Shown here in pieces: positions 12,000 through 56,745 of a DNA stretch of 64,000 bases. The stretch spans positions 64,569 to 128,568 of the forward strand of contig NZ_RRCN01000002.1 of the NCBI RefSeq assembly GCF_003863965.1. Direction: 5' to 3'. The notes beneath the pieces were generated by a model. That model was not told the DNA's origin. It ran no database searches and saw only the letters and a list, made by a program, of their open reading frames with translations. Origin of the DNA: Paenibacillus oralis. Its GTDB lineage: Bacteria > Bacillota > Bacilli > Paenibacillales > Paenibacillaceae. The translations under genes were made by a program, and so were the position numbers. Position 1 is the stretch's first letter, and every line of letters starts with the position of its first letter.

Positions 12000-12200
12000 T
12001 GATAAGATCAAGATATACCTTGTTTTTATCTTTTGCCCTTCTCGGTGTCATGCGACTTATCCGAGTATTCTAATGATAATCAAACTTATTTTAACTTGAA
12101 AAATCGCGTTTTAATTAAAACGACCAAAGAGCCTGCTTTAGGCTGGATTTCCTTCTGGTTTTTTTAATTAGTACGCGTTTTTTTGCATTTAAAAAACAGA
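12000..12200 (+). ncRNA. leader RNA copy 1 (5' hairpin + attenuator)
   Basis: Stem CTCGG (12041-12045) / CCGAG (12061-12065), loop containing CATGCGA, then TATTCTAA (12066-12073). A long terminator follows: CGCG with T/A tracts near 12105-12118 against AATTAGTACGCG near 12166-12177, then eight T. The enclosed segment keeps the family pattern CGACC, hairpin AGCCTGCTTTAGGCT, TTCCTTCTGG. It precedes a small gene and the exonuclease gene. Confidence 0.7.
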
Positions 12201-12213
12201 AGGGAGAACGATC

Positions 12214-12339
12214 ATGAACAGCTATATTGAACAAGAGTTTCGTAAGTTGGTCAAAGTTTACGGCATTGCGGAAGTGAGCGCTGCTATTAGGAAGCTGCTT
12301 CCCCAACCCGCAAAACCTACCGGCGAAAAGAGAAAATAA
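12214..12339 (+). CDS. small protein, unknown
   Basis: 41 residues from ATG 12214 with AGAAGGGAG nine bases upstream, directly behind leader RNA 1. Sequence begins MNSYIEQEFRKLVKVYG and ends with a basic tail (GEKRK). Helical, no family recognised. A terminator (12390-12430) separates it from the exonuclease gene. Confidence 0.6.
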   Translation: MNSYIEQEFRKLVKVYGIAEVSAAIRKLLPQPAKPTGEKRK

Positions 12340-12389
12340 AAGGTGAGTTGTCGATTGTCTATTTTAAATGATCAATTGGAGTTTTACTG

Positions 12390-12430
12390 AGGGACTTATG
12401 CGAATCACAAAGCATAATGTCCCTTTTTTA
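12390..12430 (+). terminator. intrinsic terminator / attenuator before exonuclease gene
   Basis: AGGGACTTATGC (12390-12401) pairs with GCATAATGTCCC (from 12412), followed by a T6 run and more T. It lies 35 bp before the exonuclease start, so read-through would control that gene. Confidence 0.75.
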
Positions 12431-12465
12431 TTTTTTTCTTAACAAATTTATAGGAGGTCAAGAAA

Positions 12466-13785
12466 ATGGAGAATCGCATTGGTGTTTCATTTTCACCTAA
12501 CGGCACTGTAAACAGCACGATTGTCAGCTTTGAGAGTTTGATCAGACAACTCCCCAATATGTCAGCGAGGGTTTCACATGTATCTTTCGAGAAGAATTGG
12601 CTAAAAATCGTATTTGATGAACAGAAAGGAAGCTCCGACTATACGGTTCAACATGAGGGCTTGTGCTTAAGTATGACATTGAAAAACCTCACCATGAGTG
12701 CTCTCAAATGCACCATTTATGAATTCATGAATCTATTGTTTTCGCTTCAAGTAAAGTATGGGGGGATTTACGACGTACAAAATCTTGTACTTCAAGATGG
12801 GGTGTTCTCTTTGGAATTGAAAGAATCTAAACAAGAACAACAAAGTCGTAGTTTAGACTACAAAGATGAGGACAGCCATAAGGCCAAAGACCCCAAACAG
12901 TTTATGGATTTAGCTGGCCGGTTGCTGTTAATTGATTCAAGCAATCTAATCAATGCTTGTTATTATGCTACTGCTGGGGGGAAGAAAGAGGAGGAACTTA
13001 TGCGTTCTTCTGCTGGCGTGTACACCAATGCAATTAAGGCATTGATTGATCGATTCATAAGTATCGTTCGTATCTATGCCCCTACCCATTGTGTTGTGGC
13101 AATAGACCCGGAAAGGTCTGAGCTTTTCCGGAGGGATATTTACTCGGAATATAAAGCCAATCGTGATGGGAAAGAGAAGCCGAATTCCCTAGAAGAGCAG
13201 ATCCCATTGGCTTATGAACTTTTTGATGCAATGAACGTCCCGCAACTGAAAGTCGAGCGGATGGAAGCAGACGATACAATAGCTGCTCTTACAAAACGGT
13301 GGATACGAGAGAATCGCGGTGATGTCATTGTATTAAGCAATGATAAAGACTTATATCAACTTCTGGATGGTAATGTGATTCAAGTACTGAGTGGAAATGT
13401 AGAAATGACACGTGATTTGTTTATTGCAAAGTACAGCATTACCCCAGAACAATTAGCTGATTATAAAGCATTGTGCGGGGAAGTTAGCGATAACATTCCC
13501 GGTGTTCCTGGAATAGGAGATAAGACCGCAGTGAAGCTTTTGACGGAGTATCAGTCATTGGAAGGGATCTTGACTAATGTCGGGCAATTGAAGGGGAAGG
13601 TAAAGGAAAATATGGAGCTCTACGCTGAAGACGCAAAAATGAGTAAGCGGCTTGCAATCTTGTATACCGATCTTCCTCAACTCGAATCCATCAATCTGGA
13701 CGAACTGGTGATGAAAATTAACAAGGATGGCATGCGCAGAGTACTTGAGAAGTTAGAAATTAAATTAACTCGATCCGCTGCATAA
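12466..13785 (+). CDS. 5'-3' exonuclease (FEN/PIN-like, PolI N-domain type)
   Basis: 439 residues. Residues about 155-430 match the 5'-3' exonuclease domain found in DNA polymerase I and phage exonucleases. Metal-binding acidic residues are visible in LLLIDSSN, VVAIDPERSELFRRD, EADDTIAAL and VLSNDKDLYQLL. The helix-hairpin-helix motif is DNIPGVPGIGDKTAVKLL. An N-terminal 140 residues of unknown fold is extra compared with stand-alone phage exonucleases. Likely role: removal of RNA primers or flaps in replication or repair, working with the ligase encoded at 16532. Start ATG behind ATAGGAGG. Confidence 0.88.
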   Translation: MENRIGVSFSPNGTVNSTIVSFESLIRQLPNMSARVSHVSFEKNWLKIVFDEQKGSSDYTVQHEGLCLSMTLKNLTMSALKCTIYEFMNLLFSLQVKYGGIYDVQNLVLQDGVFSLELKESKQEQQSRSLDYKDEDSHKAKDPKQFMDLAGRLLLIDSSNLINACYYATAGGKKEEELMRSSAGVYTNAIKALIDRFISIVRIYAPTHCVVAIDPERSELFRRDIYSEYKANRDGKEKPNSLEEQIPLAYELFDAMNVPQLKVERMEADDTIAALTKRWIRENRGDVIVLSNDKDLYQLLDGNVIQVLSGNVEMTRDLFIAKYSITPEQLADYKALCGEVSDNIPGVPGIGDKTAVKLLTEYQSLEGILTNVGQLKGKVKENMELYAEDAKMSKRLAILYTDLPQLESINLDELVMKINKDGMRRVLEKLEIKLTRSAA

Positions 13786-13806
13786 GGCGAGAAAAGGGGG
13801 AAACCA

Positions 13807-14199
13807 ATGATTATTTTAAATCACAATGCCGTTCTTGAAGCATCTCAGGCATATTTCAAAATGGTCTATAAATATTGGATATGCGAAGCTTCCTTGCAAA
13901 AAATCACTGAAGAAGTCGCTAAAATCGAGCTTTCGAAATTCTCGGAAGGGTTCCTAAACGAATATGAATCCTTTAAGAAATTATATGAGCAACACGAGGG
14001 AGATCTAACTGATATAGAAGATGGGAAGTCTGCTGCAGCCGCTCTGTTTATGGAGATGGTTTTACGATTTACCGAGAGGTTGGCCAATGCTAGGGAAATC
14101 GCTCTTGAAATCACTTATAGCGACCCAGAGCAGTTCACAGGTGGGCTTTCGAAAGAGTGGGGGACGTTTATAACGGACATTAAAAATGAAGAAAGGTAA
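13807..14199 (+). CDS. hypothetical protein
   Basis: 130 residues from ATG 13807 (AAAGGGGG upstream), 21 bp after the exonuclease gene and probably co-transcribed. Mixed helical protein with acidic patches (EGDLTDIEDGKSAAAA). No motif or family recognised. Confidence 0.55.
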   Translation: MIILNHNAVLEASQAYFKMVYKYWICEASLQKITEEVAKIELSKFSEGFLNEYESFKKLYEQHEGDLTDIEDGKSAAAALFMEMVLRFTERLANAREIALEITYSDPEQFTGGLSKEWGTFITDIKNEER

Positions 14200-14211
14200 T
14201 TGCCAAACAAT

Positions 14212-14231
14212 GCCGTGCATTACTGCACGGC
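14212..14231 (+). repeat. 20-bp palindrome, left copy of IS target duplication
   Basis: GCCGTGCATTACTGCACGGC is the stem-loop of the terminator that originally followed the gene ending at 14199. An identical copy is at 16267-16286, where it still carries its T-run. The two copies flank the IS1182-family element, so the palindrome appears to have been duplicated as the target. Confidence 0.75.
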
Positions 14232-14679
14232 CAGCCTGTTGAGAAACCCTCAACAGGCTATTTTTCTGTCTCTGCTACTTATGCCGCAAATCGTTATGAA
14301 ATTGATGTGGATCATATTCTCCAACAATTTATTTCAGAAATCGAAACATTTGTATATCCACAAACGAATGATTTGTATAAAGTCAGGTTATTCCTGATTG
14401 CTACCCTGGCTTTTTATATGAATTATCGCTATATTTGCATCGTAAGGGTAATCACATCAAAGGATTTAGATATATGCTGCAAGGTTTAGAAAATTCAGCT
14501 ATGATCAATAAAATGGTGGTTATTAATAAAAGCTCAATACAAAACATACTGCTTAAAACTAAGAAATGAAAATGCGTTGGCTATAAATTTTCAATTTGAT
14601 TAACAATGTGGTGAGACTACACCCTTAGCCCTCGGTTGTAGTGCCTATGGAGTTATGGAGATATTGGATTGAGAAAAAA

Positions 14680-14709
14680 GACGGTTGAGTAAAATTCTCA
14701 ACCGTCTTT
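14680..14709 (+). terminator. terminator abutting the inner IS left end
   Basis: GACGGTTGAG (14680-14689) pairs with CTCAACCGTC (14697-14706), then TTT, followed directly by CAGCCTGTTGAG. Together with 14212-14231, this is the second case of this IS end sitting against a terminator stem. Confidence 0.7.
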
Positions 14710-14815
14710 CAGCCTGTTGAGAAACCCTCAACAGGCTATTTCTTTGTTTCTTTTCTTTATGTATTCACCGCGTTAATATGATATAATATAGTTATCCTAA
14801 CAAGGCGGTGGTTGC

Positions 14816-16173
14816 ATGCTTCGCTCCAATCCGAATGTGCAAAACAGCTACGAATTCGTTTGTTTAGAAGAACTTGTACCTCAAAATCATTTGCTTCGTA
14901 AGATCCATAAACACATCGACTTTTCCTTTATTCTTGAAAAAGTTAAACCTTATTATTGCGAGGATAACGGACGTCCCTCGGTCGATCCGATCATGCTCTT
15001 CAAAATGATGTTTATCGGCTATTTATATGGCATTCGTTCTGAACGCCAGCTTGAACAGGAGGTCCAACTTAATGTGGCCTATCGCTGGTTTGTCGGATTA
15101 GGTTTGACGGATCGCGTTCCGGACCACAGCACATTAAGCTTGAATCGCAAGCGACTTCAGGACAGCGATGTTGTTCAAGAAATCTTCGACCATATTGTAT
15201 TCAAAGCTATTGAGCTGCGGATGGTCGCAGGCCGTGTATTGATTACAGATTCAACCCACCTCAAAGCCAACGCTAACAAGCGTAAATTCGTCAAACAAGA
15301 AGTTGAAAAGAGCGTTAAAACCTATCTGGATGATTTGGACGAGGCCGTTCAAACCGATCGAGCGGCTCATGGAAAAAAGCCTTAAAACCCCGGAAGGAGG
15401 TGACCCAGACCAAAGAAACAAAAGTGAGTACAACAGACCCCGAGAGTGGATATATGGTCCGCGACGGTAAACCGGAAGGCTTCTTCTATTTGGATCACCG
15501 GACGGTTGATCATAAATACAACATTATTACCGATGTACATATTACGCCCGGAAATGTCCATGACTCGACGCCTTATCTTGACCGCCTTGAACTACAAATC
15601 GAGAAGTTTGGGTTTGTTAAGACATTGGAAGCCGTTGCCCTTGATGCTGGTTATAACACCGCCGATATCTGCAAGAAACTCCATACCCGGAAGATTTATG
15701 CCGTCATTGGCGGTAGAAGCTATACCCCAGTAAAGGGCTTGATCGCCAAGTGGCGATTTAAGTATGATCACGAACGCGACTTGTATATCTGTCCACAAAA
15801 ACAGGAATTGACTTATGCTACAACGGACCGGGAGGGTTATCGCCAGTACAAATCGGCCCCCCAGATCTGTAAAGACTGCCCGTTGCTTGGGGAGTGTACA
15901 CGTTCAAGGAACAAACAAAGGGTCTTGACCCGGCATGTCTGGCAAGACAGCAAGGAGTGGGTAAAGCAAAACGGGCGCTCTCGCTCGGGCAAATATTTGT
16001 ACCGCCTCCGATACCAAACGATTGAGCGAAGTTTCGCGGATGCCAAAGAGCTCCATGGACTTCGCTATTGCCGGTTTCGCAGCAAGAAAAAGGTCTTAGA
16101 GCAAGCGCTCATGACAGCCATCTGCCAAAACATCAAGAAGATCGCCAACCACCTGGCCAAGCTGGCTAGATAG
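14816..16173 (+). pseudogene. IS1182-family transposase, split by a frameshift
   Basis: The N-terminal part (14816-15385) has the DUF772-type start (YEFVCLEELVPQNHLLRKIH, RPSVDPIMLFKMM, DHSTLS) and the first catalytic Asp region VLITDSTHLKANANK. The C-terminal part (in frame from about 15379, open to 16173) has VSTTDPESGYMVRDGKPEGF, the second Asp region (AVALDAGYNTADI), a C-x-x-C pair (CKDCPLLGEC), and the Glu region RYQTIERSFADAKELHGLRY. The frames differ by one base at GGAAAAAAGCC (15371-15381). That site also contains A AAA AAG, so -1 recoding or a homopolymer sequencing error is possible instead of inactivation. Confidence 0.85.
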
Positions 16174-16266
16174 GGCGATCTTCTTGTTTTTTAATACTCG
16201 AACTTCAGGAATTCATCTAACTTTTTCAAACAAACTCAAAACCAACAGAGCTTTGTCAACAGCCTG

Positions 16267-16295
16267 GCCGTGCATTACTGCACGGCTTTTTTGGT
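16267..16295 (+). terminator. terminator, right copy of duplicated palindrome
   Basis: GCCGTGCATTACTGCACGGC (16267-16286) followed by TTTTTT. This is the original terminator of the exonuclease operon, displaced 2 kb by the insertion. Confidence 0.8.
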
Positions 16296-16329
16296 GCTCT
16301 GTAGCTACTTCCGTTTTAACTATTTTGGT

Positions 16330-18553
<2,224 letters not shown>

Positions 18554-18560
18554 CTACACC

Positions 18561-18600
18561 AGGTTGGAGGCATACTTTTTGCGCCCCAACCTTTTATAAA
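18561..18600 (+). terminator. intrinsic terminator after ligA
   Basis: GGTTGG (18562-18567) pairs with CCAACC (18586-18591), followed by TTTTATAAA. The stem is short but GC-adequate. Confidence 0.55.
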
Positions 18601-18630
18601 ATCCAAAGTACGATAAGAGGGGCTTTCTAA

Positions 18631-19205: not shown

Positions 19206-19432
19206 AGATTTTCGTTGGAGCGGCGATTCCTTGATTCTGTCGAATCGATCCTTTCATTGGGGGAGGCGTCATGTTACGGGAAGTTTGATTGGGACTTCAT
19301 ATCCTGGCTGCCCAATTGGAGGGGGAGCTGCCATAAACCAGATACAAGGATTGGTCGGCAAAGATCCGCTCGCAGTAAGTTTAAATCGCAGGGAATTGAA
19401 ACAGGGGCCCAGATAAGGTCCCTGTTTTGCTT
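19203..19432 (+). pseudogene. possible frameshifted small gene ending in a terminator
   Basis: MKIF from ATG 19203 continues, after a one-base shift near 19215, as LERRFLDSVESILSLGEASC and WDFISWLPNWRGSCHKPD. The frame runs into a terminator hairpin (AAACAGGG 19399-19406 / CCCTGTTTTGCTTT from 19420). Weak evidence; nothing known resembles it. Confidence 0.3.
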
Positions 19433-19459
19433 TGAAAAGGTGTGCAAAGTGAACACTCT

Positions 19460-19632
19460 TATGCTAATATTGTTTTATACCTATCATTAATATATTTTCC
19501 CTCTCTAGCAAGCGCACAAGAGAGCATTCTAACGTACTCAAAGCACTTTTTTAAGTGATTAAGGCTAAATTGCACGCTACCAGTGTGTTCTTTTACCCTT
19601 CACTTGAAAAAGTGCTTTTTTGCGTTTTAACG
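19460..19632 (+). ncRNA. leader RNA copy 3
   Basis: Promoter-like TAATATTGTT, then the 5' hairpin CTCTC/GAGAG (19501-19524) with loop TAGCAAGCGCACAA, then CATTCTAA. Terminator arms 19541-19557 and 19600-19616 (AAGCACTTTTTTAAGTG with its complement), followed by T6. The inner hairpin is CACGCTACCAGTGTG. It precedes a small membrane-protein gene. Confidence 0.75.
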
Positions 19633-19702
19633 GTTTTTCGTGTGTGAAGCATTTGCAGGCACTAGCCTGTTTTTATCCAATCCCAGTATAGGAGTGGTTG
19701 TC

Positions 19703-19888: not shown

Positions 19889-19917
19889 ATACGGTTTATA
19901 CCGGCGCTTTAGAAAAG

Positions 19918-23690: not shown

Positions 23691-23872
23691 ATGATATAAT
23701 ATTTTCATATCCTAATCTCTGTTAATTTGTTCTTCTCCCAGCATGCGCAAAGGGAGCATTCTAAGCCAACAAAACACCTGACAAGGTGATCAAGATTGAA
23801 ACTCACACGATTCGTGTGTCCTTCCTCCTTGGTCGGTTTGTCAGGTGTTTTTTGCACCTACAACACAATTTG
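23690..23872 (+). ncRNA. leader RNA copy 4 (duplicate of copy 5)
   Basis: TATAAT at 23695-23700. The 5' hairpin is CTCCC (23735-23739) / GGGAG (23752-23756) with loop AGCATGCGCAAA, then CATTCTAA. Terminator arms ACACCTGACAA (23774-23784) and its complement (23838-23848), then T6. The inner hairpin ACACGATTCGTGT sits between GTGATCAAG and CTTGGTC. Very similar to copy 5 at 26608. What follows is a broken copy of the methyltransferase start. Confidence 0.8.
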
Positions 23873-26607: not shown

Positions 26608-26782
26608 TTATGATATAATTCTCTTGTATCCTATTTCTCAATTTCTTCTCCCAGCGTGCGCATAGGGAGCGTTCTAAGCACATGAAGCACCTGACAAGGT
26701 GATCAAAAATCGAAATTCACACGACCCGTGTGTCTTTCTTCTTTGGTCGGTTTGTCAGGTGTTTTTTTTGCACCTACAACCC
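26608..26782 (+). ncRNA. leader RNA copy 5, upstream of DNA methyltransferase
   Basis: TATAAT at 26614-26619. The 5' hairpin is CTCCC (26648-26652) / GGGAG (26665-26669) with loop AGCGTGCGCATA, then CGTTCTAA. Terminator arms CACCTGACAA (26688-26697) and TTGTCAGGTG (26752-26761), then T8. The tail GCACCTACAACCC lies just before the ribosome binding site. The alternative small hairpin ACCTGACAAGGT shares the left arm. Confidence 0.8.
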
Positions 26783-27781: not shown

Positions 27782-27960
27782 CGTGATATACTGAATACAT
27801 ACCATTTTTTTCTTTATGAACTCTTACTCTTCGGCACGAGCAGAGGAGCATTCTATTTAAGAAACACCTAACAAGGGTACTAAGGTTGAATTCACACTAT
27901 CCGTGTGTCTATTCCGACTTTGGTTGCTTGTTAGGTGTTTTTTATTTGCACCTATAACCC
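27782..27960 (+). ncRNA. leader RNA copy 6
   Basis: TGATATACT box near 27784. The 5' hairpin CTCTTC...GAGGAG (27828-27848) is followed by CATTCTATT. Terminator arms ACACCTAACAA (27864-27874) and its complement (27928-27938), then T6. The inner hairpin ACACTATCCGTGT is followed by TCTATTCCGACTTTGG. The tail GCACCTATAACCC is intact. Confidence 0.75.
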
Positions 27961-30749: not shown

Positions 30750-30925
30750 ATGATATTATTGTTTTATACCTTATCTTAATTTTTTTGGTCCTGTCATGCG
30801 ACACATGGACCCATTCTATTTCGAAATGACGCTTAACGAAGCGTATCAATGCTAAATTGTGCAGGTCTGCACTTTTTTGGGGATTGATGCTTTTCGTTAG
30901 GCGTTATTTTTTGCCTAAACAACCC
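30750..30925 (+). ncRNA. leader RNA copy 7
   Basis: 5' hairpin GGTCC (30787-30791) / GGACC (30807-30811) with CATGCGA in the loop, then CATTCTATT. Terminator arms GACGCTTAACGAA (30828-30840) and TTCGTTAGGCGTT (30893-30905), then T6. The inner hairpin is GTGCAGGTCTGCAC. The tail GCCTAAACAACCCAA lies before the ribosome binding site of the 306-aa gene. Confidence 0.75.
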
Positions 30926-37263: not shown

Positions 37264-37382
37264 GCTTAAATTAGTCGCGAGCCGTGTGCTGTGAAAGCAG
37301 CCCGCACGGTTCCAACGGGGGCTTGAGGGAAACATGCTTCGTAGTTAACCAGACTACGCTGTAATGCGTCCTCTCTCTACCC

Positions 37383-37652
37383 ACCTGCTTCCGGTTTATC
37401 CGGTACAACAGCACAGAACAAAAAGAAATCCATATGGTGACCTATGACCACACGATTGAACAAAATCTCCTCGCATTGCTTATGAGCAAGGAACGCATCA
37501 ACGAGTATATCAAAACCCTCGACTTCAAGGAGCAATCCGAAATTTACGACGAGTTCGGAATCGACTTGGATGTTCTCAATAGCGTTATTGAGAAAGAGGT
37601 GGATGAAGAAGGACGGGTGCGGTTGACTTGGGGGAACCAACAAGTCTCGTAA
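37383..37652 (+). CDS. 3' exon of methyltransferase-helicase fusion
   Basis: The open frame beginning TCFRFIRYNSTEQKEIHMVT continues helicase motif VI (G-R-x-x-R) and then the C-terminal tail (TIEQNLLALLMSKERINEYI, IDLDVLNSVIEKEVDEEGRV), ending at 37652. It has no start signal of its own and depends on splicing of the intron in 34721-37380. If the intron cannot splice, the fusion protein loses its last helicase motif and 80 residues. Confidence 0.7.
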   Translation, partial: TCFRFIRYNSTEQKEIHMVTYDHTIEQNLLALLMSKERINEYIKTLDFKEQSEIYDEFGIDLDVLNSVIEKEVDEEGRVRLTWGNQQVS

Positions 37653-39171: not shown

Positions 39172-39355
39172 CTATGCTATATTAAATTCATGTCATGTCT
39201 TCATTTTCTTTTCCTGAGCCCTGGGGCGTGCAGGCATTCTAAGTTTTAATTCGATTCCCACAGGGATAACTTTGCCTATAATTTAATCCGCTTGAAGCGT
39301 AAGAGTGATCTATTAGAATCCAAACGGAATTCTAAAGGGTCGCTTTTTTTATTGT
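39172..39355 (+). ncRNA. leader RNA copy 8 (divergent)
   Basis: TATGCTATATT box near 39174. The 5' hairpin GCCC...GGC (39218-39234) with GGCGTGCA in the loop is followed by ATTCTAAG. The terminator half is rearranged: AGCG..GATC against GGGTCGCTTTTTTT (39335-39349), with TTAGAATCC/GGAATTCTAA inside. It precedes a broken small gene. Confidence 0.6.
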
Positions 39356-40454: not shown

Positions 40455-40642
40455 TGGAAGGTGATACAATGAATGCTATACAGTTTCCTTTCATCCCCGT
40501 CTCTCGAGCATGCGCAAACGAGAGCATTCTAACTAAGATGCCTCTTCAAGAGTGATTAACTATGTCCAATTTCGGACGGAATCCCCACTTTTTTGTGGAG
40601 TTAATCAATGCTGAAGGTCGCATCTTTTTTTGCGCCTTAAAA
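40455..40642 (+). ncRNA. leader RNA copy 9
   Basis: TACAAT box near 40464. The 5' hairpin CTCTCG (40501-40506) / CGAGAG (40519-40524) has loop AGCATGCGCAAA, then CATTCTAAC. Terminator arms GATGCCTCTTCA (40537-40548) and its partner (40612-40624), then T7. GTGATTAACT/AGTTAATCA pair inside, around the hairpin CCCCACTTTTTTGTGGAG. The tail GCGCCTTAAAACC precedes the TTG start at 40675. Confidence 0.78.
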
Positions 40643-43084: not shown

Positions 43085-43270
43085 ATGATGGTATGATAGA
43101 AACATACCATAAGTTATTTTTTTCATACTCCAAGCTTGGGCATATGGAGCTTTCTAATTCTTTAATGCGCTCTTCTTTCGAGTGACCGATCTGTCTTTAT
43201 GACAGAAATCCCTTCTATTCGGATTGGTCTCTGGAAAGGGCAGCGCATTTTTATTTTGCCCTAAAAACCA
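43085..43270 (+). ncRNA. leader RNA copy 10, upstream of Spo0E-like gene
   Basis: 5' hairpin CTCCA (43128-43132) / TGGAG (43145-43149) with AGCTTGGGCA in the loop, then CTTTCTAAT. Terminator arms 43165-43179 and 43234-43248 (GCGC / GCGCAT), then T-rich. The inner hairpin CTGTCTTTATGACAG is followed by AAATCCC, and GTGACC...GGTC pair around it. The tail GCCCTAAAAACC is present. Confidence 0.75.
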
Positions 43271-44024: not shown

Positions 44025-44242
44025 CCTATCATATAATACAAACATACCATTTATTTTTTCATTTCTCCATCCTCTAGCCAAGGCATAAGAGGACATTCTA
44101 TGTTCCCTAATTCTTACCTTATTTAGGTATGTCTATATTTTTTAAAATAACGCTCGTTTGCAGCGTCCAAATCATTTATTCTCGATTATCGAGGTTGATC
44201 TTTGGGCTTTGCAAAGGAGCGTTTTTTTGCTTCTACAACCCA
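44025..44242 (+). ncRNA. leader RNA copy 11
   Basis: TATAATAC box near 44032. The 5' hairpin CCTCT (44071-44075) / AGAGG (44088-44092) with AGCCAAGGCATA in the loop is followed by ACATTCTATG. An extra hairpin (CCTAATTCTTACC..TTTAGG) follows, then terminator arms CGCTCGTTTGCAG (44150-44162) and TTTGCAAAGGAGCG (44209-44222), then T7. The tail GCTTCTACAACCCAAA is intact. Confidence 0.75.
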
Positions 44243-45351: not shown

Positions 45352-45568
45352 AATGAAATAATGATAATATTGATCCATACCATTTTTCACTGTTCTTCTT
45401 TGTTTATTTTACTCCCCAGCATGCGCAGATGGGAGCATTCTATAAACGATTTGTTTCAATGCACTCTTCTTACGAGTGACTACCTGCATTCTTCTTATGC
45501 AGAACTCCCAATTGGTTTGGGTTTAGTCATTGGTAAGGGCAGTGCATTTTATTTTGCCCTACAAACAT
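45352..45568 (+). ncRNA. leader RNA copy 12
   Basis: TAATATTGA box near 45365. The 5' hairpin CTCCC (45412-45416) / GGGAG (45431-45435) with CAGCATGCGCAGAT in the loop is followed by CATTCTAT. Terminator arms ATGCACTCTTCTTAC (45459-45473) and GTAAGGGCAGTGCAT (45533-45547), then T-rich. The inner hairpin is CTGCATTCTTCTTATGCAG. The tail GCCCTACAAACA is present. Confidence 0.78.
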
Positions 45569-45894: not shown

Positions 45895-45900
45895 AACTAC

Positions 45901-47574: not shown

Positions 47575-47735
47575 AATTTAACTATATCTTACGATTTATC
47601 TTTTTCCTTAGTCCCGGCAGGCGCTAGGACTCATTCTAACCGTTGAATACGCTTTATCTTAAGGCGACCAATCTGTCTTCTGACAGTAATTCCTTTTGGT
47701 TTATTAAGATAGGGCGTATTTTTTAATTCCCTTTT
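47575..47735 (+). ncRNA. leader RNA copy 13
   Basis: 5' hairpin AGTCC (47610-47614) / GGACT (47627-47631) with CGGCAGGCGCTA in the loop, then CATTCTAAC. Terminator arms AATACGCTTTATCTTA (47646-47661) and its partner (47702-47719), then T6. CGACCAATCTGTC...GACAG then TTCCTTTTGG is the conserved centre. The gene directly downstream (ATG 47761) is only two codons long before TGA, so its original target is lost. Confidence 0.75.
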
Positions 47736-48575: not shown

Positions 48576-48735
48576 TTTAAGTGGTAAAATAATGATATAC
48601 CTTATTCTTTCTTTTCTCAGTCTGGCCATGCGGCAGGACTCATTCTAATGACGAAATGCGCTTATTCGTAAGTGACCATTTGTGTCTTTTTGACACCCAA
48701 TGCGGTCATTTTACGGATAGGCGCTTTTTTGTTTG
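48575..48735 (+). ncRNA. leader RNA copy 14
   Basis: TAAAAT box near 48585. The 5' hairpin AGTC...GACT (48619-48639) with GGCCATGCGGCA in the loop is followed by CATTCTAATG. Terminator arms AATGCGCTTATTCGTAA (48655-48671) and its partner (48711-48726), then T6. The inner hairpin is TGTCTTTTTGACA, with GTGACCATT...AATGCGGTCAT around it. Confidence 0.78.
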
Positions 48736-49207: not shown

Positions 49208-49309
49208 TGGGGTTCTTTAGCGAAGGAATATCGCTCGAAGCCAAGTAGGAATGGACTTTTAGTTCATTCCTTTTTATATTTTTATTCTGATCAGTAGTAG
49301 GTGAAAAGA

Positions 49310-50719
49310 ATGAAATCTATCAAAATGGTGAGGAACTTAAAGACGACCGAACGTGATGGCAATACCCGATTGTACTTCGAACCAAGTGTACTCGAGGAAG
49401 CCGGCTTTAATGTTGGAGAGTCTGTCAAAATATCAATTCAACAAGATAGTATTATACTTTTTCGTGCACCTGACGAACAAAATTCAGATGGTATCATTTC
49501 TCGGCGTTTACGTCGGGGGTGGGAAAAAGCAAGGCCGTATTTCGACCGCAGCAATGCAGAAATATCTTCGGTTCTTCGGGCCAAAGAGCGTATCGATATC
49601 ATCATTCGGGAAGGACATATAACAGTTCGTCATGAGCGTTCCTTTGACCTTACGTTATCGGAGGGCATGCTGCAGGGTGAGGAACTTCAAAAGCTTCGCC
49701 TATTGAGTCTTCCCTCCGGTATGGGCATGGCGACCGCCGCGCTTGTGAATACATCACTTTATGAGGCTGTAGGTGCCATCGATATGTGGCCGATTGCACT
49801 CGACGTTTACCGATTCAATTTCAGAAATGGTATTAGTCTGATGTCCGACATCAAACATTTGCATCCGGCTTATATACCACAAGCAGATGTTGTAATACTT
49901 TCCCCTGAATGTGATGAATTCAGCGCACTCGGGACCCAGAAGGCGAATGTTGCAACAGGGTTAGCCCCACATTATGCACGGCTAATTTGGGCCACAAATT
50001 GTAATGCGGTTTTGATTGAGCAAGTGGCTCCTTATTTCAAGTCTCGGGCTTATCACCAGTTGCGTACTTTGCTTATTGCCAGCGGATTCAACAGATTTTA
50101 CGAAACCCAAATATGTGCCCATGATTTTGGAAGCGTAGCTGGCCGAAGACGTGGTTATGCGGTTGCTTTTCATGGGGACATCAACTTTGTCTGGCCAACA
50201 CCACCTCGAATTCCAGATCGTTTTAGGAAAACAGTAGGCCAGGTTTTAGGTAATGGCTGGGAAGAACGAGGACAGTGGAGTACGATTGAAAACTCTCCTA
50301 TGGAGAAACTCCTTGCCAAAAAAAAGGAGAACAACAATTTTAACGCGGATCGCAACTATACCTTAGTTGATTTGGATTCGAAACGAATATCTGCAGTCAT
50401 AAGCGCTTATCGAAGAACGCAAGTGACGAGCTCATATCTACGCCATCCCGACGGAAAACATTGGCGACAGTTCACTTCGGATGAACTTGGATATGGATTT
50501 TTGAGTCTTCCGGATTGGTTTGAATGGCCTGACGGTGGGTACGTATCCGAGACCAGAAAAGTTGAACTCATTGGACAAGGTGTCGACTGTACTGTTTTGG
50601 CAGCAATCGGAAGCGAATTGGCCGTCTCCTTGATAGGGGAGAAGGTTAGGGCAAAACGAGAAGATATTGAGCCTTCATTATTACAAAACCGTTCCGGCCA
50701 ACTTGAATTAATCTTTTAA
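49310..50719 (+). CDS. C5-cytosine methyltransferase-like protein 1 with AbrB-like N-terminus
   Basis: 469 residues. Residues 1-55 resemble a SpoVT/AbrB beta fold (KMVRNLKTTERDGNTRLYFE, GESVKISIQQDSIILF), then a SRRLRRGWEKARPYFDR linker. The methyltransferase-like domain shows a motif I variant (LSLPSGMGMATAAL), AIDMWPIALDVYRFNF, motif IV SPECDEFSALG (catalytic Cys kept, but the second Pro of PPC is Glu), motif VI variant LIEQVAPYFKSRAY, motif VIII variant SVAGRRRGYAV, block IX RQFTSDELGYGF, and block X IGQGVDCTVLAAIG. Similar in length and layout to the proteins at 50786 and 54976. Probably modifies pyrimidines in DNA; the substitutions could signal a changed chemistry. Confidence 0.7.
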   Translation: MKSIKMVRNLKTTERDGNTRLYFEPSVLEEAGFNVGESVKISIQQDSIILFRAPDEQNSDGIISRRLRRGWEKARPYFDRSNAEISSVLRAKERIDIIIREGHITVRHERSFDLTLSEGMLQGEELQKLRLLSLPSGMGMATAALVNTSLYEAVGAIDMWPIALDVYRFNFRNGISLMSDIKHLHPAYIPQADVVILSPECDEFSALGTQKANVATGLAPHYARLIWATNCNAVLIEQVAPYFKSRAYHQLRTLLIASGFNRFYETQICAHDFGSVAGRRRGYAVAFHGDINFVWPTPPRIPDRFRKTVGQVLGNGWEERGQWSTIENSPMEKLLAKKKENNNFNADRNYTLVDLDSKRISAVISAYRRTQVTSSYLRHPDGKHWRQFTSDELGYGFLSLPDWFEWPDGGYVSETRKVELIGQGVDCTVLAAIGSELAVSLIGEKVRAKREDIEPSLLQNRSGQLELIF

Positions 50720-50725
50720 GACGAG

Positions 50726-50756
50726 TGGCGACTTCACATGGGGGTCGCTTTTTAAA
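50726..50756 (+). terminator. attenuator-like hairpin between the paralogues
   Basis: AGTGGCGAC pairs with GTCGCTTTTT across TTCACATGGGG. It lies 30 bp before the next methyltransferase-like gene. Confidence 0.6.
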
Positions 50757-50785
50757 TGAATTCTACTTGAATGGAGTGGAGTTAC

Positions 50786-52195
50786 ATGGGTACATGTAAA
50801 CAAGAATCCCCGAAAGTAAAACTGATTCGAAACATAAGAACCAGCGAGAAGGCGGGAAACACCTGGATTTTCCTTGAGCCGACCGTTTTAGAGGCTGCTG
50901 GATTTGAGATCGGTGATGGGGTAAGTCTCACTATCGAACGCGATGCTTTGATTTTCCGTAAAACGGATGATAAGACACACATTATTTCTAGAAGAAAAAG
51001 GGCTGGGTGGAAGAAGGCTCGGCCGCTGATGGATAAAACAAATAAGGAGATTAGCGCTGTGATCCGGGCCAGGGAGAAGATTGACATCCTTGTATCGGAC
51101 GGCATGTTAGTGATCCGGCACTCTCGCAGCTTTGATCTTGCCTTTATTCGGCAGCCTATGCTAATGGGGGGTGACCAAAAACAGATCCGGACCCTATCGG
51201 TCCCCGGAGGCGCTGGAGTGGGTATAGCTTGCCTGGTAGACACAGGATTTTTCTCCTCAGTAGGCTCCCTTGATCTTTGGGCAGAAGCGATAGATACCTA
51301 TCGACATAATTTCAGGGAAAGCCTATCTTTATTTACGGATTTGAGAAACGTTCATAACGACTATATCCCTGCAGCTGACATGGTACTTCTCACTCCAGAG
51401 TGCATAGAGTTCAGCATGCTTGGAACAAGGAAAGAAGATATTGCAACTGCACTGAGTCCTCATTATGCCCGCGTTGTATATGCTTCAGGCGCAGATTATG
51501 TGCTTGTGGAGCAAGTGGTTCCATACTACAAATCTCGCGCATTTGAGCAGCTCAACACGTTACTTCGCATCAAATTTCCTTACAGTTCAGGCCCGGTAAT
51601 GCTTGATGCATACGATATGGGTAGCGTAGCTGGTCGTCGAAGAGGGTACTGTGTCTACAGCACTCGGCCGCTTAATTCTTTCCAGATGCCGACACCTCCA
51701 AAAATCCCCGAACACCGCCGTCCTAATCTAAAGCAAGTTCTGAGCGGGATGGATGTATTGGAGGGGGATTGGAAACCAATTGAAGGCACAGTAATGGAGG
51801 GGCTTTTGAAAAAGAACGGAAATAACAATTTCCGTGCGGAGTCCAATCATACGTTGGTAACACTCGAAAGCACCCGTATTTCGGCTTTTGTCACCCATTA
51901 CCGGAAGGTACAAGTTACGAGTTCTTATTTAACTCACCCGGACGATCCAAGTATGTGGAGAATGTTTGAACCTCACGAAATTTCCAGGATTCTCGGGGTA
52001 CCGGAATGGTTCAAATTTAATTCTGAAAGCATCAGCGATGCTACTAAGACTAAGCTTCTTGGTCAAAGTGTGGATGGTAATGTCATAAGAGCGATCGGGG
52101 TAGAGCTTGCAACATATATCATGGGCAATTGGCTACGAGATCAAGTTGGCTCACCCCAATTCATTGAAGAACAAGGGCAACTGAGCCTTTTCTAA
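50786..52195 (+). CDS. C5-cytosine methyltransferase-like protein 2 with AbrB-like N-terminus
   Basis: 469 residues from ATG 50786 (TGGAGTGGAG upstream). Same layout as protein 1: AbrB-like start (KLIRNIRTSEKAGNTWIFLE, GDGVSLTIERDALIF), SRRKRAGWKKARPLMDK, then motif I variant LSVPGGAGVGIACL, SLDLWAEAIDTYRHNF, motif IV TPECIEFSMLG, motif VI variant LVEQVVPYYKSRAF, SVAGRRRGYCV, and block X LLGQSVDGNVIRAIG. Clearly paralogous to protein 1 (tandem duplication). The catalytic Cys is retained. Confidence 0.7.
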   Translation: MGTCKQESPKVKLIRNIRTSEKAGNTWIFLEPTVLEAAGFEIGDGVSLTIERDALIFRKTDDKTHIISRRKRAGWKKARPLMDKTNKEISAVIRAREKIDILVSDGMLVIRHSRSFDLAFIRQPMLMGGDQKQIRTLSVPGGAGVGIACLVDTGFFSSVGSLDLWAEAIDTYRHNFRESLSLFTDLRNVHNDYIPAADMVLLTPECIEFSMLGTRKEDIATALSPHYARVVYASGADYVLVEQVVPYYKSRAFEQLNTLLRIKFPYSSGPVMLDAYDMGSVAGRRRGYCVYSTRPLNSFQMPTPPKIPEHRRPNLKQVLSGMDVLEGDWKPIEGTVMEGLLKKNGNNNFRAESNHTLVTLESTRISAFVTHYRKVQVTSSYLTHPDDPSMWRMFEPHEISRILGVPEWFKFNSESISDATKTKLLGQSVDGNVIRAIGVELATYIMGNWLRDQVGSPQFIEEQGQLSLF

Positions 52196-52208
52196 TATTG
52201 CCACTAAA

Positions 52209-52235
52209 GGGAAGGTCCAACTGGGCCTTCTCTTA
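52209..52235 (+). terminator. short hairpin, weak terminator
   Basis: GAAGGTCC pairs with GGGCCTTC, followed by TCTTATC. Confidence 0.5.
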
Positions 52236-52273
52236 TCATAGGAGGAGAATAAGTCTCCAGGAGGGAAACTACA

Positions 52274-53569: not shown

Positions 53570-53581
53570 TCCTATATGTAA

Positions 53582-53612
53582 AAAGAGCCCTTACAAGTAA
53601 AGGGTTCTTTTC
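53582..53612 (+). terminator. intrinsic terminator
   Basis: AAGAGCCCTT pairs with AAAGGGTTCTT, followed by TTCATTTATTTT. The following 220 bp (53613-53835) contain only broken frames such as RFDLNRKGDLLSVRELDCNT, with stops. Confidence 0.75.
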
Positions 53613-53837
53613 ATTTATTTTGGGAGGTATATGTTAATTGCAACGTTAGATTTGATTTAAATAGAAAAGGTGACTTGTTATCTGTTCGTGAGCTTGATTG
53701 CAATACTTGGTGTTTCTGAATTTAACCGGGACCTAAAAACAAATGAAGGTAATGACAGCTCTGTCGATAATCTTCTATGTGGGCATGCCTAAATAATTAT
53801 ATATATGAACTCTGTTGGATTAACATGTTTTCGAAAA

Positions 53838-53980
53838 AGTGGTATCATAGAGTCATACCTTATTTTTCTACCTCTTGTCCTGTCATACGACTCATGGACT
53901 GATTCTATTGCTTCGAAATGACGCTGAACCACAGTGTATCAATCTGTGGTTGGGCGTTATTTTTTTGCCCATACAACCCA
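53838..53980 (+). ncRNA. leader RNA copy 15
   Basis: TATCATAGA box near 53843. The 5' hairpin TGTCC (53876-53880) / GGAC (53896-53899) with CATACGA in the loop is followed by GATTCTATT. Terminator arms GACGCTGAACCACAG (53920-53934) and CTGTGGTTGGGCGTT (53944-53958), then T7. The shortest member; the tail GCCCATACAACCCAA is intact. Confidence 0.75.
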
Positions 53981-54006
53981 ATAACCCATTTTTAGGAGGA
54001 ATTTTT

Positions 54007-54864
54007 GTGGAGAATTATTTTTGTCAAAAGGTAGATTTAAGAAGTCGAGCAGCAATGGTTCAATTTCTAACTTCGCATTTTCGGTATAACACGATGAACT
54101 CGTGGAATAACAGCACGAGTTACGCGAACAATGTTAAGGTGAACCGAATTATCCCTCGCGAGCACCAGGATCAAGCGTACAATCTCTTAGAACAGGAAGC
54201 AGTGTTCCACCATATCCATGTTCTTTTTTCAGAGTGGGCAGAGCAGTATCATTACCGCTGGCATGCCGGTTTTAATGGGCGTAGCGGTGGATACATTGTT
54301 CTGTATCAAGGGCAAGCTGAAAGTCCAAAAAGTGGACCAAAATCGTACTGTTTGGAATGCGGTCAACACAATTTCAAATTGGTGCCACCCGAGAACCCTA
54401 CTCCAGAACAACGGTTAATTCTTCTTGTTCACCAGAATCAAACCTGGAGAGACGCTGTTATCTACGAAAATAACGAGGAACTCATTAAGAATCTTGGTTT
54501 TGAACGAGAAGCAGCGCTGGCCATATTTGCTGCCGAGAAAAGGAAAATTTCTCAAGGCGCTGGCGAATTCAGTTCATCTAACAAATGTGGAAAGTGCCAT
54601 GCTCCTGCGAGAGTTAATTACGAGACACCTCCTACGCGGTTTAACATATTCCCTGTTCGTTCGACGGATATGGGCGAAGACTTCCATTCCGAAGATTGGG
54701 ACATGGAATCACTGCGTGATAGGGTTCGACTTGTCCAGAGCTTTGATCAATTGTGTGACCAAGTTCGAGCTCTTTTCATCGCTTATTGCAAAGACTATAG
54801 AGTCGAAGAAGTAGAAGTCATGGTGCCACAGAAAAGAAAAATTCTTAAGCCTGTTGAGGTTTAA
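54007..54864 (+). CDS. hypothetical protein with Cys-rich zinc sites
   Basis: 285 residues from GTG 54007 with TTAGGAGG upstream. SYCLECGQHNFKL and NKCGKCHAPARVNY give two C-x-x-C pairs about 90 residues apart. WHAGFNGRSGGYIVLYQG is a conserved-looking strand pair. The C-terminus is helical and basic (QKRKILKPVEV). No family recognised. Under leader copy 15 and upstream of methyltransferase-like protein 3. Confidence 0.6.
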   Translation: MENYFCQKVDLRSRAAMVQFLTSHFRYNTMNSWNNSTSYANNVKVNRIIPREHQDQAYNLLEQEAVFHHIHVLFSEWAEQYHYRWHAGFNGRSGGYIVLYQGQAESPKSGPKSYCLECGQHNFKLVPPENPTPEQRLILLVHQNQTWRDAVIYENNEELIKNLGFEREAALAIFAAEKRKISQGAGEFSSSNKCGKCHAPARVNYETPPTRFNIFPVRSTDMGEDFHSEDWDMESLRDRVRLVQSFDQLCDQVRALFIAYCKDYRVEEVEVMVPQKRKILKPVEV

Positions 54865-54882
54865 GTTGGTATGGAAAGGAGC

Positions 54883-54915
54883 GAAGCAGCTGTCTTCGCT
54901 CTGTTCTTTCACTTT
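54883..54915 (+). terminator. intrinsic terminator
   Basis: GAGCGAAG pairs with CTTCGCTC across CAGCTGT, followed by TGTTCTTTC. Lies 60 bp before methyltransferase-like gene 3. Confidence 0.65.
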
Positions 54916-54975
54916 TTAATTCCAAAAAAATAAGGAGGAGGAAAGGGCCTTGTTTATTCAAATCGGCCGCCTACA

Positions 54976-56427
54976 ATGAGCGTAAAGGAAAATATCAAAT
55001 TGATCCTTCAAAAGGTGTATCAAATCAGTCGTAAGAAAGAGACTCCTCGCATTTGGCTGCAGCATCTTGTATGCGAAGCAAGTGGTTTTGTCCCAGGTCA
55101 GGAGATTTACATTAAATTGAACGAAGAGGATAAAGAGATTCTGATCCAGAATCGCGAATTCGAAGAAGGGGATTCGGAAAGCATTCATCAAGTCCATGTC
55201 TCCTCGAGAATCAACAAAGTAAGTGGGGAGGCAAGGCCTCTTGTTGATTCGGCACGGGATTCGTATGCTTCGGTGATTTCTGTACAAGATAAGGTTGAAA
55301 TATGCGTGTATAGTCTGGGCGGATACTCTCGCGTTGTTGTTCGACCGCTTCGCTTTAAGCTTTTCAACACTGAGACTTTCGAGACACCTAGCGACGAGAG
55401 AATTCGGCTTCTGAGCATTGCGGCAGGCGCGGGAATCGGAACGAGCTATTTTCGGTCTACCCAGTATTTCACCCCCGTTCAAGAAATCGAGATGGATGAG
55501 GATTCTGCAGAAAATCTGAAGCTAAATTATCCAAATTCTTTTTTGTTCCACGGTGACCTAAGAGACTGCAATGTCGTGTCGAAGGCTGACGTTGCGTTGG
55601 TAACGTTACCGTGCAATGAGCATTCCAGTTTGGGGGATGGGAACCAAGGGGTGTTTATCAACCTAACTTTGGCGGCGGCTAAGATTATTAAGGCTGCTGA
55701 ACCTCGAATCGTTTTTTTTGAAAATGTTCCGGCCTTTTATAAGACCCGAGCATTTACGGATCTACAGGCTTTGCTTATCAGAGATTACCCATATTGGATT
55801 GGGCCAGTAAAACTCGAAAGTCATGATTTTGGTTCCATCGCGAAGCGAGAGAGGAGCTATTCTCTTGCTTTTCGTTACCAGGAGGATATGATGAAATTCA
55901 GAGTCCCTTCACCTCCTAGCAAAGTTCGGAGAAAGAAGCTTAAGGAATTCCTTGATTCGAAAGAGACGGAACACGAGTGGAAGTCGTTGGAGAAGTGGCT
56001 TGCCTCATTCAATTCGAAGGCAGATAAAAACAATGCGTGGGCCAATCGTTCAACTGACCTAACGTTTGTGGACGAAAATGCGACGATGATCCAATGCATA
56101 CCTAAGCGTTACCGTTCCCATTGTGCCAGCAATACTTACGTTATGAATCCAGACAAGCAACAATGGAGATTCTTGACCGTTACCGAGTTGCGCCGCATTT
56201 TCGGTATACCAGATGATTTCAAGTTCTCCATCCATACGCCTCTCTGGAGGATTTATGAGCAAATTGGGCAGTCCGCATGTGGTCGTGTTTTCCGTGCATT
56301 TGCAAATGAAATTGCTGCAGTATTCTTCGAGGCTATGCTGAGAGTGCCTTCTCCTGAGAAGAAGGATGAGGATGTTCTTCCTTTTGAGCTGGACGCAGAT
56401 GGTCAGTTGCAGCTACTGATGATCTAA
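54976..56427 (+). CDS. C5-cytosine methyltransferase-like protein 3
   Basis: 483 residues. Its N-terminus is a shorter, diverged version of the AbrB-like segment (GQEIYIKLNEEDKEILIQ). The catalytic region is closest to canonical enzymes: motif I LSIAAGAGIGTSYF, EIEMDEDSAENLKLNYP, FHGDLRDC, motif IV LPCNEHSSLG (PC present), motif VI FFENVPAFYKTRAF (ENV present), GSIAKRERSYSLAF (R-E-R), and block X QIGQSACGRVFRAFANEIA. Paralogue of proteins 1 and 2. The strong AGGAGGAGG site serves a 9-codon frame from TTG 54950 whose TGA overlaps this ATG (ATGA), suggesting coupled translation. Confidence 0.75.
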   Translation: MSVKENIKLILQKVYQISRKKETPRIWLQHLVCEASGFVPGQEIYIKLNEEDKEILIQNREFEEGDSESIHQVHVSSRINKVSGEARPLVDSARDSYASVISVQDKVEICVYSLGGYSRVVVRPLRFKLFNTETFETPSDERIRLLSIAAGAGIGTSYFRSTQYFTPVQEIEMDEDSAENLKLNYPNSFLFHGDLRDCNVVSKADVALVTLPCNEHSSLGDGNQGVFINLTLAAAKIIKAAEPRIVFFENVPAFYKTRAFTDLQALLIRDYPYWIGPVKLESHDFGSIAKRERSYSLAFRYQEDMMKFRVPSPPSKVRRKKLKEFLDSKETEHEWKSLEKWLASFNSKADKNNAWANRSTDLTFVDENATMIQCIPKRYRSHCASNTYVMNPDKQQWRFLTVTELRRIFGIPDDFKFSIHTPLWRIYEQIGQSACGRVFRAFANEIAAVFFEAMLRVPSPEKKDEDVLPFELDADGQLQLLMI

Positions 56428-56436
56428 TATCTATGA

Positions 56437-56468
56437 ATTTGGGCCGGTGGGTTATCCGGTCCTTTTTC
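56437..56468 (+). terminator. intrinsic terminator
   Basis: GGGCCGG pairs with CCGGTCC, followed by TTTTTCTTTTC. Confidence 0.75.
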
Positions 56469-56484
56469 TTTTCAATTGTAAAAG

Positions 56485-56745
56485 TACATGATACAATAAG
56501 GCCATACCTTATCATTTTCTATCACATTTTTCTTATCCTCGGTCCCGGGACTTATGAGGAAATTCTACCTTACACTAATGCGCCTTCAAGCGAAAAAGAC
56601 TTAATTGGGGATCTGCGTCCTTTATGTCTGTACTTTGAACGACGTTTTTTATATGATAATGGAAAATGCGTTTATCAGAGTTACTAATCACTGTTTTTCA
56701 GGTATTAGTGGCCGTGATAGACGCATTTTTTGCGTCTTACAACCC
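56485..56745 (+). ncRNA. leader RNA copy 16 (long, divergent)
   Basis: TACAATAAG box near 56492, then CATACCTTAT as in other copies. The 5' hairpin (CCTC...GAGG, 56537-56559) is followed by AATTCTACC. AATGCGCC (56577) pairs with GACGCATT (56720), then T6. The inner part is longer than in the other copies. The tail GCGTCTTACAACCCAC is intact. Confidence 0.6.

Follow-up and report, generated by a model that had tools for sequence, protein, structure and literature searches.

A 64,000-nucleotide (nt) stretch of Paenibacillus oralis DNA (the window), corresponding to positions 64569 to 128568 of the 518,225-base contig C2 in a four-contig genome of 8.1 Mb (G000), carries a family of leader RNAs that combine a promoter, a small 5′ hairpin, and a long intrinsic terminator upstream of gene blocks. 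Tests on the sequences confirm these leaders as a genuine, selected, and covarying RNA family, which is best read as a new attenuator family of mobile elements, larger and wider than first described, with a plausible mechanism. The account that we favor, with moderate confidence, is that the leaders serve as conditional terminators (attenuators) of mobile elements in Paenibacillaceae and a neighboring family, the gene behind each one being reached by read-through of its own terminator.

Catalogue and architecture of the leaders

A previous examination of the window, made from its letters without database searches (the sequence-only reading), had listed 16 leader copies, and all of them (16/16) were located close to where it had placed them. 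The hexamer that follows the hairpin reads ATTCTA in 14 of these 16, GTTCTA in one (26671), and TTTCTA in one (43151). The 5′ hairpins with their hexamers are as follows.

12041..12072, plus strand: leader 1, 5′ hairpin and ATTCTA (CTCGG t GTC atgc GAC ttat CCGAG t ATTCTA; ATTCTA from 12067)
16369..16397, plus strand: leader 2 (ligA; NAD-dependent DNA ligase domains, Pfam), 5′ hairpin and ATTCTA (from 16392)
19501..19531, plus strand: leader 3, 5′ hairpin and ATTCTA (from 19526)
23735..23763, plus strand: leader 4, 5′ hairpin and ATTCTA (from 23758)
26648..26676, plus strand: leader 5 (DNA methylase N6_N4, Pfam), 5′ hairpin and GTTCTA (from 26671)
27827..27855, plus strand: leader 6, 5′ hairpin and ATTCTA (from 27850)
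30787..30818, plus strand: leader 7, 5′ hairpin and ATTCTA (from 30813)
39213..39241, plus strand: leader 8, 5′ hairpin and ATTCTA (from 39236)
40501..40531, plus strand: leader 9, 5′ hairpin and ATTCTA (from 40526)
43128..43156, plus strand: leader 10, 5′ hairpin and TTTCTA (from 43151)
44070..44100, plus strand: leader 11, 5′ hairpin and ATTCTA (from 44095)
45412..45442, plus strand: leader 12, 5′ hairpin and ATTCTA (from 45437)
47610..47638, plus strand: leader 13, 5′ hairpin and ATTCTA (from 47633)
48619..48647, plus strand: leader 14, 5′ hairpin and ATTCTA (from 48642)
53877..53907, plus strand: leader 15, 5′ hairpin and ATTCTA (from 53902)
56536..56567, plus strand: leader 16, 5′ hairpin and ATTCTA (from 56562)

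Scanning C2 on either strand for the structure returned 64 matches, 38 of them with an upstream YATAYC box (17 and 1, respectively, in the reversed sequence), and reading by eye retained 43 of the 64 (plus strand, 39; minus strand, 4). The same curation of loose-scan matches kept 22 of 32 on G131:C5, 4 of 22 on pART37 (Paenibacillus sp. 37), and 4 of 13 on pY5S7-1, the three relatives of C2 found via NusA. G131:C5 (223,240 bases) has at least 24 leaders, 22 from the scan and two found by the model, and G103, a genome of the same family, holds a 543,320-base contig that agrees with pART37 in the coordinates of its nusA and leaders. No leaders emerged on plasmids of Pontibacillus, Priestia, B. 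velezensis (pAD3), and P. cellulosilyticus under strict filters, by which most pART37 and pY5S7-1 copies were lost as well. Accepted leaders are absent from C2 between 214 kb and 338 kb, and the part from 338 to 373 kb contains three of the four found on the minus strand; the impression that leaders head most gene blocks is fair for the window and less so for C2 between 214 and 400 kb. As to the nature of C2, a phage-type replicon was considered and dropped, a 24.9-kb near-DNA search having yielded no phage or plasmid match; a conjugative-type megaplasmid is the preferred assignment because a TraG-type gene is present and the relatives are plasmids.

Leader anatomy was derived from a set of 69 (43 from C2, 22 from G131:C5, and 4 from pART37), the pY5S7-1 leaders being excluded as near-repeats of those of pART37; two true-looking G131 leaders, at C5:531 (TTTCTG) and C5:49244 (ATTTTA), were missed by the script and stand outside the set. 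The parts follow each other in the order sigmaA-type promoter, (C/T)AUACC, 5′ hairpin, one base, AUUCUA, long terminator, and, often, start codon. The promoter and conserved start region proposed for each copy are borne out by a YATAYM box 5′ of the hairpin in 61 of the 69 leaders and by promoter scores of at least 8 of 12 in 53 of the 60 scorable ones, as opposed to 27% when upstream bases were shuffled. The −10 box typically precedes YATAYM by 5 nt (44/60), so that the RNA is expected to start at (C/T)AUACC. Some 20 to 35 U-rich bases separate this box from the hairpin, which is about 22 to 25 nt long and is followed by AUUCUA. It consists of an outer stem of 4 to 6 bp, 0 to 2 unpaired bases, an inner stem closing a tetraloop (e.g., GC/GC, GTC/GAC, or GCC/GGC around NNRN), and a bulge of 1 to 4 bases on the 3′ side, before the outer 3′ arm. 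The second pair of the inner stem is GC in 49 leaders, TA in 13, and CG in 7. What had been described as a constant loop is therefore a mini-hairpin with its own inner stem and tetraloop (ATGC in 20, AGGC in 13, ATGA in 6, plus 16 other types), whose constant element is the purine at position 3 (69/69; 61 G and 8 A); the closing C-G pair is imposed by the parser. Similarly, the "fixed" ATTCTA directly after the stem stands as a conserved hexamer (ATTCTA in 56/69, TTTCTA in 7, GTTCTA in 4, and ATTCTG and ATTCTT in 1 each) that varies and is usually set off from the outer 3′ arm by one base, C in 49 of 69.

Selection on the hairpin as RNA

Sites were collected with a stem-blind pattern (−10 box, YATAYM, and NTTCTA), and the hairpin was scored afterwards, with reversed sequence as the control. 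A hairpin was found at 38 of 60 such sites on C2 (1/41 in the control), 16 of 36 on G131 (1/20), 4 of 46 on pART37 (1/68), and 5 of 37 on pY5S7-1 (1/46). Swapping the 3′ halves of the outer stems among leaders gave a mean score of 6.98, compared with 13.37 for the own halves, a value reached in 0 of 5,000 permutations, in a test biased toward the stem by the preselection of leaders for it.

Comparison of orthologous leaders points in the same direction. Twenty-one leader pairs preceding orthologous genes were matched by the similarity of the downstream proteins (38 to 77% identical), and their stem positions comprise 16 double changes, 7 single changes that still pair, and 137 unchanged positions. 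Register shifts and differences in stem length inflate the 16 double changes, which fall to 6 once four pairs of unequal stem length are set aside (two of the six come from one shared leader); moreover, the parser used in the half-swap and orthologue tests requires pairing and a closing C-G, so that broken pairs cannot appear. Examples are the outer stem of the leader of the primase-like gene, which reads GCCCT/AGGGC in C2, GTCCT/AGGGC in G131, and GTCCT/AGGAC in pART37, and the inner stem of the transfer operon leader, GCC/GGC in C2 and GTC/GAC in G131. Compensatory changes between orthologous leaders are new here. Together, the stem-blind enrichment, the half-swap test with its bias, and the double changes sustain the view that the covarying stems mark a selected RNA. 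For the 16 pairs formed between C2 and G131, an average of 4.7 edits separates the hairpin region from its orthologue and 12.1 edits separate it from other C2 leaders, the orthologue being the closest or joint closest of the 43 C2 leaders in 11 pairs. Since leaders are closer to their orthologues than to their neighbors, much of the set seems to predate the divergence of these replicons.

Terminators and alternative hairpins

The long, gene-specific terminators ascribed to the copies were recovered: predicted terminators of −25 kcal/mol or better with a U-run follow 61 of the 69 hairpins, compared with 39 of 300 random places and 32 of 271 stretches upstream of other open reading frames (ORFs). 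Terminators better than −15 kcal/mol occur in 64 of 69 leaders (mean, −36.1 kcal/mol; median span, 80 nt).

Two alternative hairpins involve the terminator arms. H1 is a self-fold of the left arm and corresponds to the small alternative hairpin already described as sharing that arm. H3, in which the right arm pairs with a repeat of the first part of the left arm located behind the U-run, is present in many leaders; this third arm is new and had escaped the sequence-only reading. Both are specific to their own leader, as the observed complementarity was reached in 0 of 5,000 permutations in each swap test (57 of the 69 leaders used) and in 1,345 of 5,000 for a control window 30 nt further on. 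The own H1 exceeded the row mean in 45 of 57 leaders, and the own H3 did likewise (45/57). The terminators in the window are listed below.

12099..12185, plus strand: long terminator of leader 1 (−27.3 kcal/mol; span, 84)
16402..16496, plus strand: long terminator of leader 2 (−44.7 kcal/mol; span, 90)
19540..19622, plus strand: long terminator of leader 3 (−35.4 kcal/mol)
23772..23854, plus strand: long terminator of leader 4 (−40.8 kcal/mol; H1, CACCT/AGGTG; third arm GCACCT after the U-run)
26684..26770, plus strand: long terminator of leader 5 (−41.6 kcal/mol; third arm behind it)
27861..27944, plus strand: long terminator of leader 6 (−38.6 kcal/mol; third arm behind it)
30823..30913, plus strand: long terminator of leader 7 (−43.6 kcal/mol; third arm behind it)
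39301..39350, plus strand: shorter terminator of leader 8 (overshot by the automatic span)
40535..40632, plus strand: long terminator of leader 9 (−32.9 kcal/mol)
43164..43253, plus strand: long terminator of leader 10 (−38.6 kcal/mol; third arm behind it)
44149..44229, plus strand: long terminator of leader 11 (−36.5 kcal/mol)
45458..45551, plus strand: long terminator of leader 12 (−40.1 kcal/mol; third arm behind it)
47645..47725, plus strand: long terminator of leader 13 (−31.3 kcal/mol)
48653..48731, plus strand: long terminator of leader 14 (−34.9 kcal/mol)
53915..53967, plus strand: terminator of leader 15 (−26.9 kcal/mol; third arm behind it)
56664..56732, plus strand: terminator of leader 16 (−32.4 kcal/mol)

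Genes behind the leaders

A start codon with a ribosome site lies 30 to 65 nt past the U-run in 41 of the 69 leaders (median, 51 nt over 67). A start codon some 50 nt behind the U-run leaves little room for a second promoter, and the gene would therefore be expressed only if polymerase passes the terminator. According to Pfam, the gated blocks encode DNA ligase, methylases, a helicase/methylase fusion, AddB, a CHC2 primase-like protein, a TraG-type protein, a 5′-3′ exonuclease-like protein, and a PAPS-reductase-like protein, alongside many unnamed ORFs; some of the named genes are the second or a later gene of their block. The protein encoded behind the leader at C2 position 129224 has the look of a sliding clamp by eye and no Pfam match, and it was left unnamed. 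The four leaders of pART37 precede the CHC2 primase-like gene, transfer genes, a DUF4257 gene, and, distantly, nusA. Many leader blocks are only 1 to 3 kb long, and simple terminators (hairpins of up to 60 nt, in a coarse test) occur at 0.40 per kb after leaders and 0.39 per kb in a leader-poor region. Without an excess of internal terminators, the terminator within the leader itself is the likely target; processive antitermination, which was also considered, is not indicated by this coarse comparison.

Three genes for C5 cytosine DNA methylases cluster in the window, at 49301-50719, 50771-52195, and 54976-56427. Their products have N-terminal stretches that look similar by eye, one of them with a sub-threshold SymE-type match.

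A structured 5′ leader with alternative hairpins and a terminator upstream of genes is also what a small-molecule riboswitch family would present. We regard this explanation as very improbable, given that the conserved part extends over only ∼25 nt, the stems vary freely, and the gated genes (ligase, 5′-3′ exonuclease, methylases, AddB, primase-like, and transfer) share no common pathway, some copies being single ones in prophages. Nor do the leaders match any Rfam family, in line with the earlier failure to place them as a T-box, riboswitch, or known attenuator: at the gathering threshold, a search of the window with 4,227 families returned only group II introns away from the leaders, ten 3-kb leader loci gave one irrelevant match at an E value of ≤1, and the leader RNA was not found in the open literature searched. 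The group II intron parts lie at window positions 37277-37385, 58984-59157, 59621-59717, 60003-60175, and 62564-62805 and adjoin ORFs that, on reading, resemble reverse transcriptases.

Distribution beyond C2

The leader family is not particular to C2: further replicons of plasmid or plasmid-like character have it too, and within the same order it turns up in prophage regions and in those of integrative elements. Absence of matches outside this element had been named among the grounds for abandoning the family, and matches were found on three further plasmid-type replicons and as single copies. At an E value of ≤0.02, model R2 matched 12 of 394 family genomes, namely, the own genome, G103, G131, and nine genomes with single copies. 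An order sample of 392 added two genomes, G443 and G512, and a class sample of 398 returned only the own genome at an E value of ≤0.002 (0/397 others).

The 11 single matches were read individually; 10 display the leader anatomy to varying degrees, five with a strict YATAYC box, and chance matching was discarded on that basis. A hairpin followed by a U-run is visible by eye in eight, whereas the copies of G013 and G028 are weak or untypical; the G015 copy reads ATGCTA, and that of G150 is a full plasmid-type leader. Prophage-like regions of G191, G275, G249, G015, and G443 carry one leader each, on the far side of a helix-turn-helix (HTH) repressor-like gene (names by reading), and the G191 copy is contained in the phage contig IMGVR_UViG_2744054636_000001. 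The single leaders of G013, G180, and G213 lie beside recombinase-like genes, and that of G028 adjoins a lipoprotein gene resembling that of two prophage regions. A loose, permissive leader pattern matched 91 viral contigs. An additional search for plasmids with a primase alignment retrieved nothing from genome contigs and only distant relatives from viral contigs.

Two recurrent settings of the single copies deserve mention. In two prophage regions and one further genome (L249, L250, and L247), a small lipoprotein-like gene sharing (Y/F)GM(S/T)(Q/R)xDAEK(I/V)LG is located just 5′ of the leader. In L248, L251, and L252, the leader lies between one or two opposite-strand recombinase-like genes and a protein of ∼300 amino acids encoded ∼500 bases downstream, alike by eye in two of the three; these loci are probably an integrative element with one leader.

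The 11th match, from G512, a genome that belongs to another family within the order, is a spacer in a CRISPR array (G512:C5:274605-274637, minus strand). It is identical over 33 bases to the leader of the C2 primase-like gene, across hairpin and ATTCTA, and related elements therefore seem to be targeted by host CRISPR immunity at this leader.

A proposed conditional-termination mechanism

In the mechanism that we propose, the leader terminator would be on by default, with the gene off or low. The hairpin and AUUCUA would form the recognition site of a trans-acting factor, either host-encoded or RNA polymerase itself, that is read alike at all copies, and this factor or polymerase would shift the odds of termination at all gates. 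H1 would fold first and, if held, keep the left arm away from the terminator. Once the gene is transcribed, H3 would hide the right arm and the U-run, preventing the read-through transcript from folding back, so that H1 and H3 together would represent the fold of that transcript. Megaplasmids, with their many copies, would place genes for replication, DNA modification, and transfer under joint control; a prophage has a single copy.

Several observations weigh against this account. The terminator fold looks far more stable than H1 plus H3, and H3 requires polymerase to be beyond the U-run already, too late for H3 itself to decide termination. The automatic search gave no terminator in 3 of the 69 leaders and values above −25 kcal/mol in 5 more. 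In 28 of 69, the first likely start lies outside the 30- to 65-nt interval from the U-run or was not found, and a Shine-Dalgarno sequence with an ORF (≥40 amino acids) within 450 nt, present behind 64 of 69 leaders, also occurs at 528 of 1,000 random plus-strand places; hence, the spacing is informative and mere presence is not. Pair counting by the tool on model alignment A4 gave a weak result (74.8% paired); when A4 is slid by −1, nearly as many positions pair and the covariation score rises, since the two classes of inner stem differ in register by one. As the A4 counts alone give the structure no support, the stem-blind, half-swap, and orthologue tests were used instead. Finally, the prophage copies point at the 3′ end of the opposite-strand HTH repressor-like gene, with no obvious gene after the terminator, and may therefore make a small RNA there.

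These prophage units would also suit a nonregulatory role, in which the leaders yield short terminated RNAs (decoys or by-products) and gene expression is supplied by read-through at a constant, low level. We judge this improbable, since pair-specific H1 and H3 and the gene-specific conservation of leaders across plasmids require selection beyond that on a plain terminator.

Candidate trans-acting factors

BLAST comparison of the C2 ORFs with the ten single-copy stretches (6 to 40 kb, from which a distant gene could escape) disclosed no common regulator, only recombinases and scattered genes. A host factor or RNA polymerase itself is therefore at least as likely as an element-encoded regulator. 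NusG (PF02357) is encoded once in the own genome and in 10 of the 12 other carriers and twice in G275 and G213; the NusG paralogue LoaP was accordingly rejected as the common factor.

C2 does encode a second NusA (C2:335570-336655, minus strand) that is 58% identical to the chromosomal protein. Seventeen such plasmid-type proteins form a fully supported clade apart from 18 other NusA proteins. This paralogue might be the trans factor of the plasmid copies, replacing or competing with host NusA on hairpin-carrying polymerases and thereby raising or lowering termination, an idea that we entertain only tentatively. It would agree with the occurrence of plasmid-type NusA in 3 of 394 family genomes, all three with several leaders on the same contig; with the leaders found upstream of nusA, at 2.1 kb in C2 and 0.9 kb in pART37 and pY5S7-1; and with the strong stimulation of the Bacillus velezensis dfn leader terminator by NusA (PMC12691694). 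However, plasmid-type NusA is missing from the nine single-copy family hosts, which have chromosomal NusA only, and so is not needed everywhere, and the co-occurrence is accounted for just as well if the plasmids descend from a common ancestor. Direct control of nusA is also doubtful, because the automatic search gave its upstream leader a terminator of only −10.7 kcal/mol in C2 and none in pART37, and no start codon was found behind this leader; in G131, no leader was found upstream of nusA.

The nine hosts without plasmid-type NusA, the mostly single NusG of the carriers, and the lack of a shared protein bar recombinases would all be accommodated by RNA-only antitermination of the put/EAR/canT type. 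Hairpin and AUUCUA would then bind RNA polymerase with no element protein, and the terminator would be an insulator against polymerases that started elsewhere; canT of Tn916 offers a precedent in mobile elements (PMC11658703). We nevertheless hold this to be unlikely: internal terminators are no denser behind leaders, many blocks are short, and covarying H1/H3 alternatives would be pointless under constitutive read-through.

Returning to conditional termination, a shared signal probably decides when leader-bearing genes are read. A bolder extension, put forward as a speculative possibility, is a replicon-wide antitermination regulon in which one signal, via one hairpin motif, would switch more than 40 megaplasmid operons, among them those for replication, DNA modification, and transfer, all at once; a NusA lineage dedicated to the plasmids would be adapted to the very long terminators, and phages and integrative elements of related hosts would use the same RNA code. 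An element with terminator-controlled leaders usually has one or a few of them; on C2, a single motif precedes dozens of blocks, and it reappears in unrelated mobile elements within this bacterial order. This pattern suggests that the expression of mobile-element genes is under a common switch, which might be a host factor that the elements learned to read. The 43 natural variants of C2, which combine the same putative recognition hairpin with different terminators, constitute a ready test bed.

Comparison with known systems

Plasmid pLS20 is reported to have very long-stem terminators, unusually long for a Gram-positive plasmid; the long terminators described here differ in being placed in leaders before genes, with pair-specific alternative hairpins. 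The conAn system of pLS20-family plasmids likewise involves a plasmid RNA near a promoter, in Gram-positive conjugative plasmids, and works on intrinsic terminators, but it combines a protein with an RNA part and sits at the head of a single operon of >30 kb that contains >20 internal terminators (PMC8955417). In contrast, our leaders head tens of mostly short blocks in which internal terminators are not enriched. canT (Tn916), put (HK022), and EAR (eps operon) are RNA antiterminators that act in cis in mobile elements or long operons. The activity of canT, which is present once per element, was mapped to a sequence of 452 nt (PMC11658703). The leaders reported here differ in having no Rfam match and no sign of processivity; canT and put were set apart by their description.

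A close parallel is LoaP-dependent regulation of dfn in B. velezensis, where experiments established the order small leader hairpin, leader terminator, and first gene (PMC12691694). Both systems share a promoter, a small 5′ hairpin, and an intrinsic terminator before the first gene, and at dfn NusA acts at that terminator (PMC12691694); our leaders reproduce the succession of hairpin and strong terminator, often with a start codon at the characteristic spacing. They differ in that LoaP is a NusG paralogue and the carriers here mostly have a single NusG, that the dfn hairpin is described there as of the UNCG type while ours has an NNRN loop (one TCGG and no TNCG among the 69), and that two gene clusters are concerned in that account, as opposed to 43 copies on C2. 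By analogy, LoaP-dfn shows that Gram-positive bacteria can operate a gate made of a small leader hairpin and a terminator in the leader that depends on NusA (PMC12691694).

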